Shown: positions 442-40,482 of the stretch, piece after piece
How positions within the stretch are numbered: position 1 is the first letter of the stretch
How the letters are laid out: each line of letters starts with the position of its first letter
Origin: Kribbella turkmenica
GTDB taxonomy: Bacteria > Actinomycetota > Actinomycetes > Propionibacteriales > Kribbellaceae
Length of the DNA: 64,000 nt
Assembly: GCF_004348725.1 (NCBI RefSeq)
Contig: NZ_SMKR01000008.1
Span: 1-64,000 of the forward strand
Direction: 5' to 3'
Made by a program: the position numbers and the translations under genes
Notes under the pieces: generated by a model
What the model saw: the letters and a program-made list of their open reading frames with translations, nothing else
Told to the model about the DNA's origin: nothing
The model's database searches: none

Positions 442-885
442 TCAGGGCACCATTCCGAGCCGGGCGGCGACCCCGGTCGCGTCGAAGTACGACCGCTCCT
501 CGATGATCAGACCGTCGGGTGCGAGCCGCCAGAAGGTGCCCGACTCGAAGGAAATTGCTTGAGCCGTCGCGGGCAGCTCACCGCCCGGCATCTCCAGTGG
601 CCCGGCATTGACCCCGCTCACTCCCAGCTCGACGGCGACCCGGTCGCCGACCGCGATGGCAGGGCGAAGCTGCCGCCACTGCATGTCGGGGAACGCACGC
701 AGGACGCTCTTCTGCACGTTCTCGATGGCCCCCCGGCCCTTCGAGGGTTCCGGAAAGAACGGGTCGTAGATCACGCCGTCCTCGGCGAAGAGTGCGACCC
801 ACGCGTCCATGTCGCGGGCGTTGAAGGTGTCCACGTATCGGCGTGCCAGTTCCTCTCCCGTGGCTGCCAGGTGATCCTGCGTCAT
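442..885 (-). CDS. SnoaL-like / NTF2-fold protein
   Basis: The product is 147 aa, the usual size for SnoaL-like polyketide-cyclase-fold proteins. The N-terminal pattern LARRYVDTFNARDMDAWVAL, then DPFFPEP and KGRGAI, is the typical alpha helix and first strands of this NTF2-like fold. Members range from cyclases and isomerases to non-catalytic stress proteins, so no substrate is assigned. The ATG at 885 follows a GGAG with normal spacing and is preferred over an upstream in-frame ATG at 996. The gene diverges from a LuxR-type regulator at 990 across about 100 bp, which suggests the regulator may control it. Confidence 0.75.
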   Translation of the reverse strand: MTQDHLAATGEELARRYVDTFNARDMDAWVALFAEDGVIYDPFFPEPSKGRGAIENVQKSVLRAFPDMQWRQLRPAIAVGDRVAVELGVSGVNAGPLEMPGGELPATAQAISFESGTFWRLAPDGLIIEERSYFDATGVAARLGMVP

Positions 886-989
886 GATCGGCTCCGCTCG
901 TTCGTTGTGGTTGGTTCCTGATGGCCAGCGAACTCCAGCGCCGAGCGGTCCGCCATGCCATGATTCTGGTATCGGGGAGAGGAGGCGGC

Positions 990-2165
990 GTGCCACAGGT
1001 CAGGATCACAGCCGCCGGACGCCACGCAGAACAGGCGGCGCTGGCACGCATCCGTCGGTTGTCGTGTGCCGGCCTCGATGTCGCCGCGTTCGTCAACCAG
1101 ATGAACCCGATTGTGACCCAACGGGTCAGCAATGGAACGGCGACCATCGACAGCCCGTTCTGGTTCACGATCGACCCCGAGTCGCACCTCGTCACGAGCA
1201 TCTACGGCGAGGGCTGTGACATCGATCCGGGCGACTACATGCGGTGGGAGCTTCTCACCGACGACTTCATCAAGACCGCGGACGTCGTGCACAGCCCGCG
1301 CGGCGTCCTGACGTTGCACGAAGCCACGGGTGGCCATCCCGAGCGCAGCCCGATCTACGTCGAAGTCATGATTCCCCATGGCATGGCGCAAGAGCTCCTT
1401 GTCGCGCTGCGATCCGCCAACGGTGAGAACTGGGGTACGACGCGCCTGAATCGTGCACCGGGTGACCCGATGTTCTCGGAGCACGAAATCAGCTTCATGG
1501 CGGCCGCCGCGCCCTTGATCGCCGAGGGGGTCCGTCGGGGGCTGCTCGTCGGGGAGGCCACCGAACCGGAGCGACTGGACGCACCCGGACTGGTCGTCCT
1601 GACGGTCGGCGGCGAAGTGGAGTCAATGAGCCCTGGTGCGGAGGAATGGTTCTCGTTCCTGCCTGACGACGACGGCTGCCAGGACGGTGTGCCAACGAGT
1701 GTTCTCGCGGCCGCGGCCGCGGCGCTGCGAGAGGCCGAGGGCAGCGGCGCCGGGGGCGTCTCGGCGGTTCGGGTACCGATGACGAACGGACGCTGGGCCG
1801 ACGTCCAGGGTGCGGTCACAGGCGCAAACAAGGACTCGAAAGTCACGGTGATCATCCAGCAGGCTCACCCCAACCGCATCGCTCCACTGCTGATGTCGAT
1901 CTACGGCCTGACCGTGAGGGAACAGGAGGTGACCCAGCTAATCCTGCGGGGAGGATCCACCACCGATCTCGCTCACGCACTGTCGCTGTCCCCGCACACT
2001 GTGCAGCAGCACCTCAAGAGCATCTTCGAGAAGACCGCCGTCAACAGCCGCGGCGAACTGATCGCCAAGATCTACTTCGACTGCTACGACCTGCGCACCC
2101 ACGACAACCGTGACCGGATACAGGCCGAGCAGCCCATCCGCGGTGGCCCGAAGGTTTCCGCCTGA
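990..2165 (+). CDS. LuxR-family transcriptional regulator
   Basis: A 391-aa regulator with a C-terminal LuxR/FixJ helix-turn-helix at about residues 310-370 (GLTVREQEVTQLILRGGST, then LSLSPHTVQQHLKSIFEK). The remaining 300 residues show no receiver or Walker motif; a GAF/PAS-like sensory region is plausible but was not identified by motif. The GTG at 990 has GGAGG at 981-985; in-frame ATGs at 921 and 960 lack a clear ribosome site. The gene diverges from the SnoaL-like gene at 885. A copy of the region repeat starts about 13 nt after its stop. Confidence 0.75.
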   Translation: MPQVRITAAGRHAEQAALARIRRLSCAGLDVAAFVNQMNPIVTQRVSNGTATIDSPFWFTIDPESHLVTSIYGEGCDIDPGDYMRWELLTDDFIKTADVVHSPRGVLTLHEATGGHPERSPIYVEVMIPHGMAQELLVALRSANGENWGTTRLNRAPGDPMFSEHEISFMAAAAPLIAEGVRRGLLVGEATEPERLDAPGLVVLTVGGEVESMSPGAEEWFSFLPDDDGCQDGVPTSVLAAAAAALREAEGSGAGGVSAVRVPMTNGRWADVQGAVTGANKDSKVTVIIQQAHPNRIAPLLMSIYGLTVREQEVTQLILRGGSTTDLAHALSLSPHTVQQHLKSIFEKTAVNSRGELIAKIYFDCYDLRTHDNRDRIQAEQPIRGGPKVSA

Positions 2166-35781: not shown

Positions 35782-39387
<3,606 letters not shown>

Positions 39388-39396
39388 CTGCCGTCA

Positions 39397-39417
39397 CCTC
39401 CAGAAAATCTCCGGAGG
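39397..39417 (-). promoter_or_regulatory. metH Shine-Dalgarno and anti-Shine-Dalgarno hairpin
   Basis: On the minus strand CCTCC (39417-39413) can pair with the metH ribosome site GGAGG (39401-39397) across an 11-base A/T-rich loop. The CCTC overlaps the 3' strand of the riboswitch pseudoknot, so ligand binding could free the ribosome site. Confidence 0.55.
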
Positions 39418-39486
39418 CGCCCTTGCAGTCGGAACCCGGGTCGAGCGTGGCGGACCAGAGAGTCCGTTGCAGCGCCTCTCGACCTG
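39414..39486 (-). ncRNA. SAH (S-adenosylhomocysteine) riboswitch of metH
   Basis: The minus-strand leader has P1 GGTCGAG pairing with CTCGACC, then the conserved GAGGCGCTGCAACG, a P2 hairpin CGGAC/GTCCG, GCCACGCTCGACC, and finally CAAGGGCGCC. The 3' GCGCCTC (39420-39414) pairs with GAGGCGC (39480-39474) to close the pseudoknot. This is the architecture of SAH riboswitches, known to activate SAH recycling and methionine synthase genes. No other gene is seen between 39388 and 39636. Confidence 0.8.
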
Positions 39487-39636
39487 GCCGCACCATGTTA
39501 GCGGCGTCACACGCCGATCACCGGGGCAGCGCCCACTTACTGAGACAGCTGTTCAGTAGGTGGACGAAATGGCCCATGAGATCACCTGCCGAATGGACCA
39601 CCGTCGAGGTGGCGAGGATCACCTAGCCTGAGCGCT

Positions 39637-40482
39637 GTGAGGATCTTTGTCGCCGGCGTTTCCGGTGCGATCGGGCGCCTGCTCGTGCCACTCCTGCTCG
39701 CCGCCGGTCACGAGGTCACCGCGCTCACCAGACGTGACCCGGCAGCCCTGCGCGACCGCGGCGTGACAGCGGTCGCCGGGGACGTGTACGACGCGGACTC
39801 GCTGCGCGGCGTGGTCGCGGCGGCCCGGCCGGACATCGTGATGCACCAGCTGACCGACCTGAGTACGCGCGACTTCGCAGGCAACCTGCGGATCCGCCGG
39901 GTGGGCACCCGGAACCTGGTCGACGCCGCTCTCGCCGCCGGCGTACGCCGGGTGATCTCACAGAGCATCTCGTGGGCCTACGAGCCGGGCGACGAACCGG
40001 CCGACGAGGTGACGCCGCTGGATCTTGCCGCACCCGACGACAACCGCCGTGCGTCGGTCGAGGCGGTGGCGCGGCTCGAGGAGATCACCGCGGAGGCCCC
40101 GGAGTGGGTGGTGCTGCGGTACGGGATGCTCTACGGCCCGGGCACCTGGTACACCAGAGGCGGGCTGATGGCCGAGGCCGGCAACCTGCCGTCCGGGCCG
40201 GACCTCACCAGCTTCCTCCACGTCGAGGACGCCGCGATCGCCGCGGTCCAGGCGCTCGGCTGGCCGACCGGACCGGTCAACGTCGTCGACGACGATCCGG
40301 CGCCGGCTGCCACCTGGGCACCCGTCTTCGCCGAGTCCGTCGGCGCCGCCACTCCCCCGCCGGCCGGATCCGCTCGCACGGCGTGGGCTCGTGGCGCCTC
40401 GAACGACTACGCCCGTACCCGGCTAGCGTGGATGCCGACCTACCCCAGTTGGCGTACCGGCTTCTTCGGTCGCCCGGGCTGA
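39637..40482 (+). CDS. NAD-dependent epimerase/dehydratase (extended SDR)
   Basis: A 281-aa protein starting with GTG: VRIFVAGVSGAIGRLLVPLL contains the GxxGxxG motif, followed by DVYDADSLRGVVAAARPDIV and RVISQSISWAYEPGD; the later VVLRYGMLYGPGTWYTRGGL is typical of this group. The substrate is not known. It starts about 150 bp upstream of the metH leader on the other strand. Confidence 0.82.
   Translation: MRIFVAGVSGAIGRLLVPLLLAAGHEVTALTRRDPAALRDRGVTAVAGDVYDADSLRGVVAAARPDIVMHQLTDLSTRDFAGNLRIRRVGTRNLVDAALAAGVRRVISQSISWAYEPGDEPADEVTPLDLAAPDDNRRASVEAVARLEEITAEAPEWVVLRYGMLYGPGTWYTRGGLMAEAGNLPSGPDLTSFLHVEDAAIAAVQALGWPTGPVNVVDDDPAPAATWAPVFAESVGAATPPPAGSARTAWARGASNDYARTRLAWMPTYPSWRTGFFGRPG

Follow-up and report, generated by a model that had tools for sequence, protein, structure and literature searches.

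A SAH-class riboswitch ahead of metH in Kribbella turkmenica, probably a translational ON switch whose pseudoknot strand doubles as an anti-Shine-Dalgarno

Introduction

Translational riboswitches of the general kind rely on two mutually exclusive structures, an aptamer and a hairpin that takes up the Shine-Dalgarno (SD) sequence. The question raised by the leader of metH in Kribbella turkmenica is whether one short RNA segment serves both structures there, and what SAH binding would then do to translation of the gene. The class of SAH riboswitches reportedly goes back to Weinberg et al. in 2007 and Wang et al. in 2008. A first-pass annotation of the 64,000-nucleotide stretch analysed here (the window) had placed a SAH-riboswitch pattern at 39388-39486, and had proposed that the 3′ pseudoknot strand GCGCCTC shares its CCTC with a CCTCC able to pair with the metH ribosome site GGAGG, so that SAH binding would release this site. 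We have analyzed this proposal by covariance-model searches, RNA folding and the comparison of leaders from related and distant genomes.

Results

The metH leader carries a SAH riboswitch aptamer

The only Rfam match in the window was RF01057, the SAH riboswitch, at positions 39486-39408 of the minus strand, with a score of 39.1 bits, the gathering score being 37, and an E value of 0.00097 for the window. The match covers the model end to end (Table 1), and a genome-wide covariance-model search located RF01057 once in the whole source genome. The margin over the gathering score is 2 bits, and many relatives fall under the threshold. The pattern that the first-pass annotation had recognized in the sequence is thus recovered by the covariance model, and a coordinate check found the P1, P2 and P4 strands, the CCTCC and the GGAGG at the places described. 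The element is also present at the locus given, to which the strand, previously unstated, has to be added: both the aptamer and metH (39387 to 35782) are read from the minus strand. The start codon of metH is 20 bases past the 3′ end of the aptamer match, and the product carries all five Pfam domains of cobalamin-dependent methionine synthase, so that the aptamer is followed by a gene of SAH/methionine recycling, as expected of this class. The metH leader is a member of the SAH riboswitch class; from the class and from the anatomy of the leader we infer that SAH is its ligand and that SAH tips the balance between the structures described below.

Table 1. Features of the metH leader, in coordinates of the window; sequences are given as RNA of the minus strand, except for metH.
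Feature	Position	Strand	Basis or remark
SAH riboswitch aptamer, model positions 1-78 of 78, end to end	39408..39486	-	RF01057 match
P1 5′ strand AGGUCGA	39479..39485	-	RF01057 alignment, coordinates checked; P1 pairing across leaders
P4 (pseudoknot) 5′ strand GAGGCGC	39472..39478	-	pairing across leaders, duplex energy
P2 5′ strand CGGAC	39462..39466	-	RF01057 alignment, pairing across leaders
P2 3′ strand GUCCG	39451..39455	-	RF01057 alignment, pairing across leaders
C in CCA[C]GCUC, pairs with 39422; most proteobacterial members have G here	39447	-	leader comparison
P1 3′ strand UCGACCC	39438..39444	-	RF01057 alignment, coordinates checked
G in AA[G]GGCGCC, partner of 39447	39422	-	leader comparison
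P4 (pseudoknot) 3′ strand GCGCCUC	39414..39420	-	pairing across leaders, duplex energy
Anti-SD arm of hairpin H, CCUCCGGA	39410..39417	-	to 39419 in the MFE fold; 39414-39417 also in P4
Loop of hairpin H, GAUUU, 5 bases	39405..39409	-	between anti-SD and SD arms
SD arm of hairpin H, UCUGGAGG, pairs with the anti-SD arm	39397..39404	-	folding and comparison of leaders
metH Shine-Dalgarno GGAGG	39397..39401	-	ends 9 bases 5′ of AUG
metH, cobalamin-dependent methionine synthase, 1201 aa, ATG start	35782..39387	-	ORF and Pfam domains

A hairpin over the metH SD shares bases with the pseudoknot

The sharing of CCTC between the pseudoknot strand and the CCTCC opposite the metH GGAGG was borne out by the sequence. 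The proposed pairing of CCTCC with GGAGG also exists, but as first described it was too short: the hairpin, here called H, is formed by CCUCCGGA and UCUGGAGG, with 8 bp, one of them G-U, around a 5-base loop, and the pseudoknot-free MFE fold lengthens it to 10 bp (CGCCUCCGGA/UCUGGAGGUG). H buries the metH SD, and its 5′ arm overlaps P4 by 4 to 6 of the 7 bases of the P4 3′ strand (at the minimum CCUC, 39417-39414), so that in their full form the two structures are mutually exclusive. Formation of P4 leaves just four bases of this arm, CGGA, available for pairing, i.e., a residual hairpin of 4 bp. The energies estimated at the locus, -11.7 kcal/mol for H and -13.1 kcal/mol for the P4 duplex, ignore the loop cost of the pseudoknot, the ligand and co-transcriptional folding, and they indicate that neither fold dominates by far.

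The MFE fold of the leader, computed pseudoknot-free, had a z-score of -1.96, and 7 of 200 shuffles folded equally well. The short motif that had first drawn attention (CCTCC-N(3-14)-GGAGG) was rejected as evidence on its own, since 2.14 occurrences per window are expected by chance and 1 was observed; it proves nothing alone, and the comparison with relatives has to decide. As judged from that comparison, it is the place and the conservation of H, rather than the motif itself, that exceed chance.

Hairpin and pseudoknot are conserved together in actinobacterial leaders

The source genus, represented by 38 genomes, is the only genus of its family in the sample, and the genome samples at the level of genus, order and class overlap. 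RF01057 was matched at E 0.001 in 27 of the 38 genomes of the genus, in 41 of 245 of the order and in 42 of 394 of the class, whereas an exact pattern of the aptamer core was found in 37/38 and 58/394 genomes of the genus and the class, respectively. A true absence of the aptamer from part of the genus, which the 11 genomes without a RF01057 match might have suggested, was therefore discarded, and most of the misses are threshold losses. At wider distances, the core pattern was present in nearly all the genomes of one sampled genus (f7/g40, which we take to be Mycobacterium) and in none of the sampled genomes of another (f22/g55, probably Streptomyces). Plasmid records with metH gave partial matches only.

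For the comparison we assembled 85 actinobacterial leaders, L001-L080 drawn from these genome samples plus five from named genomes (Actinomycetospora, Micromonospora, Actinomadura, Actinocorallia and Mycolicibacterium), every one of which has the core and P4. The pattern used on the named genomes was too loose, and of the 80 loci that it listed we kept the 12 that on inspection looked like true riboswitches; RF01057 was matched in 10 of the 12 named genomes with such loci. A hairpin H of at least 5 bp adjoining P4, and starting at the last CC of GCGCC, was detected in 84 of the 85 leaders. A version of 6 bp or more that directly continues P4 was found in 82/85; among 8500 dinucleotide shuffles of the sequence downstream, the corresponding share was 8.6%. 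In 21 more leaders, held out from this set, drawn from the core-pattern matches in the genus and the class, and all ahead of metH, it was present in 21/21. The core pairs of H reached a probability above 0.5 in 82 of 84 leaders. The register of H was defined by the longest possible pairing, a choice that biases the inner positions towards being paired; the bases at its outer end are dictated by the SD.

Changes in one arm of H are met by changes in the other

The pairing in H is kept through changes of letter, as in CCUCCC/GGGAGG, CCUUCC/GGAAGG and CCUCCG/CGGAGG. Among the 85 leaders, position 4 of H was C-G in 62, U-A in 19, U-G in 3 and mismatched in 1; position 6 was C-G in 44, G-U in 29, G-C in 6, U-A in 2 and U-G in 1, i.e., a standard pair in 82/85, with mismatches in the rest. 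In the aptamer, each of the P4 pairs 1-7 was standard in 84 or 85 of the 85 leaders (pair 1: C-G 65, U-A 16, U-G 3, mismatch 1), pair 4 of P2 was A-U in 42, G-C in 27, G-U in 14, C-G in 1 and mismatched in 1, and P1 was paired at pairs 1-3 in 85/85 and at pair 4 in 67/85. The base that H position 4 has in common with P4 pair 7 changed from C to U in 22 leaders, giving a G-U pair in P4, and in 19 of these 22 the SD base had changed to A. Across these leaders, this is the pattern that two partners competing for one base should leave.

In a metH tree of 63 sequences, two deep clades each contain both the C-G and the U-A forms. For position 4 of H, the tree requires 3 changes in the anti-SD arm and 6 in the SD arm; for position 6, it requires 5 in each. 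Sign tests could draw on 2 independent pairs per position on well-supported branches, where at least 6 would be needed for p 0.05, so that the tree test of covariation is consistent with the pairing and never opposed to it, yet not significant alone. The arm-swap control was weak, with 5.3 of 6 Watson-Crick pairs for own arms versus 4.6 for swapped arms in 10 types.

Transcription signals around the leader

Action on transcription, with P4 set against a terminator in the manner of certain proteobacterial leaders of the class, would be an alternative to an effect on translation. In several proteobacterial leaders, L209, L215 and L229 among them, the P4 3′ strand does enter a long hairpin that has a T run behind it. 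However, a terminator scan of the metH leader found no terminator-like site in positions 39300-39700, and in the metH leaders compared it is the metH start codon, and not a T run, that closely follows H. Transcription termination was rejected for the metH leader on the first of these grounds, and we regard control of transcription here as very unlikely.

On the 5′ side, a sigma-70 promoter scan at the locus found none, and a weak -10-like TANNRT is located at most 18 nt 5′ of P1 in 27/27 leaders of the source genus. As a promoter, it is suggestive only, but by its place just 5′ of P1 the transcript may start directly before P1. A GTGACGCCRCTAACATG-like stretch directly 5′ of P1 (39487-39530, minus strand; L002-L027) is kept in many members of the genus and may hold the promoter -10.

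A pair of the putative binding pocket is flipped in Actinobacteria

The pair formed by positions 39447 and 39422 was CCA[C]...AA[G] in 85/85 actinobacterial leaders, whereas 62 of the 66 proteobacterial leaders that could be parsed had G...C at the same pair, one further leader being unparsed. Of the other four, three ahcY-type leaders (L258-L260) have C/G, and L210 is a misparse as judged by reading its sequence. Base 39422 is presumably equivalent to C46 of the crystal structure 3NPQ. With this presumed numbering, of the contacts G15, C16, A29 and C46 of 3NPQ, the UGC and the CCA are kept, and the equivalent of C46 is a G with its partner flipped. The change from G-C to C-G at this candidate SAH contact is possibly new, and marks a specific place in the binding pocket where the model can be probed.

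A real aptamer fold that has changed its ligand in Actinobacteria could leave such a contrast between the two groups, at a base that by the presumed numbering would be close to the SAH tail. Nevertheless, the downstream genes remain those of SAH recycling, metH and ahcY, the same flip is present in the three proteobacterial ahcY-type leaders, and a flip that preserves the pair is conservative, and we regard a changed ligand as very unlikely. The accessible portion of one paper reports C46 of 3NPQ as near to, or contacting, the amino acid tail of SAH (PMC7057144).

Genes downstream of the actinobacterial aptamers

A metH frame follows 80 of the 85 actinobacterial leaders, and H is present in all 80. 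At ahcY (L072 of genome G577, L068 of genome G251, and L084) the distance from aptamer to start codon is 98-174 bases, and H is either separated from the start codon by about 100 nt (L068, L072) or absent (L084, which precedes an ahcY-like frame at 174 bases and is the sole leader without an H of at least 5 bp). Read by eye, the SD freed in L072 would serve a short frame 5′ of ahcY, about 16 codons long, whose stop codon comes ahead of that gene. The genome of this leader has two SAH aptamers, one 5′ of metH and one 5′ of ahcY.

Two further leaders have other genes downstream. In Micromonospora endolithica (L093), where H is distant from the likely start codon, the aptamer is about 84 bases 5′ of a frame whose sequence motif resembles that of an adenosine deaminase; such an enzyme would dispose of the second product of SAH hydrolysis. 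In L078 (genome G274; ORF 658-1485, minus strand) the aptamer and the anti-SD hairpin are directly 5′ of a SAM-dependent methyltransferase (Pfam Methyltransf_11), which, in place of a recycling enzyme, is an odd target for a SAH ON switch.

Discussion

The computed class membership, the identity of the gene, and the two pairings with their shared bases and their conservation are the observations from which we infer the effect on translation, and they make it probable that the metH leader is a SAH-class riboswitch acting as a translational ON switch. The conservation of H over the SD, together with the lack of a terminator in the scan, makes this the best reading, and the ON switch that the first-pass annotation had put forward gains support from the comparison of sequences through the P4/H overlap, the cover of the SD, the paired changes and the terminator result. 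At low SAH, the P4 3′ strand GCGCCUC would be drawn into the hairpin CCUCCGGA-GAUUU-UCUGGAGG with the SD, and ribosome loading on metH would be blocked. With SAH bound, P1, P2 and P4 would be held together and CCUC retained in P4, which would reduce H to 4 bp and leave GGAGG free, 9 bases 5′ of AUG. SAH yields homocysteine, the substrate of MetH, and the additional MetH would remethylate the homocysteine derived from SAH. An ON switch fits this metabolism, and it fits the class behaviour as given in the accessible part of PMC7057144. Likewise very unlikely is a hairpin that constantly lowers metH translation while SAH has no switching role, for although the pseudoknot-free ensemble is predicted to consist mainly of structures with H, P4 and H are both conserved, the shared base included, and a constant hairpin would need no P4.

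We tentatively go one step further, to a reading that is plausible but falls somewhat short of probable: the actinobacterial leaders may form a distinct SAH subtype, in which P4 has been recoded as the anti-SD of metH, the SD co-evolves with it and the SAH-tail pair is flipped, possibly retuning affinity or specificity. If this is true, aptamer and expression platform would be one element. In either case, the translational ON switch offers a complete and testable model for the coupling of actinobacterial methionine synthase to SAH, in which a single strand of a leader of about 100 bases would serve both ligand sensing and ribosome access, and the paired changes of SD, anti-SD and P4 provide comparative evidence for the mechanism that is beyond the reach of a single sequence.

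Comparison with known systems

The metH leader shares with the RF01057 class P1, P2, the P4 pseudoknot, the conserved core, the SAH-recycling genes and the proposed ON logic. It departs from the consensus in P4, which is GAGCGC/GCGCUC in RF01057 and GAGGCGC/GCGCCUC in Actinobacteria, a recoding by which the 3′ strand doubles as anti-SD, and in the putative pocket pair, which is CCA[G]/AA[C] in the consensus and C/G in the metH leader, with the SD following directly.

In two proteobacterial orders the aptamer was found in 49/60 and 32/61 genomes. As in the metH leader, the P4 3′ strand of proteobacterial SAH riboswitches pairs downstream: in 50 of 59 parsed leaders (of 60) at least 3 of its first 6 bases do so in the MFE fold, as a raw count. 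The competition with an OFF hairpin is hence not unique to the metH locus. However, the proteobacterial partner varies, from T-tailed hairpins (L209, L215, L229) to the start codon (L204, L205; CGUUCAU/AUGAACG) and the SD side (L232-L235), whereas each of the 80 actinobacterial metH leaders uses the metH SD as the partner. In these folds, competition for the P4 strand looks general for the class, and the actinobacterial solution at metH looks uniform. The three T-tailed cases belong to tandem SAH riboswitches in the order of Paraburkholderia, the first of which has the T-tailed hairpin overlapping the P4 strand.

SAH riboswitches have already been published in Mycobacteriaceae (PMC3766115), and ahead of metH in Comamonadaceae (PMC4239095); in the accessible parts of these two papers, the descriptions do not include the expression platform. 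A literature search, with the founding papers of the class outside its coverage, found no paper naming both the SAH riboswitch and Kribbella. The aptamer class and its actinobacterial and metH occurrence are thus already known, and the uniform actinobacterial platform is possibly new. Upregulation of ahcY by a SAH riboswitch, i.e., ON behaviour, is stated in a secondary paper, as far as its accessible text goes (PMC7057144). By contrast, in the SAM-II, SAM-III and SAM/SAH types the ligand-bound fold directly occludes the SD, according to the accessible part of PMC10907184; those are OFF switches, whereas in the metH leader the ligand should free the SD.
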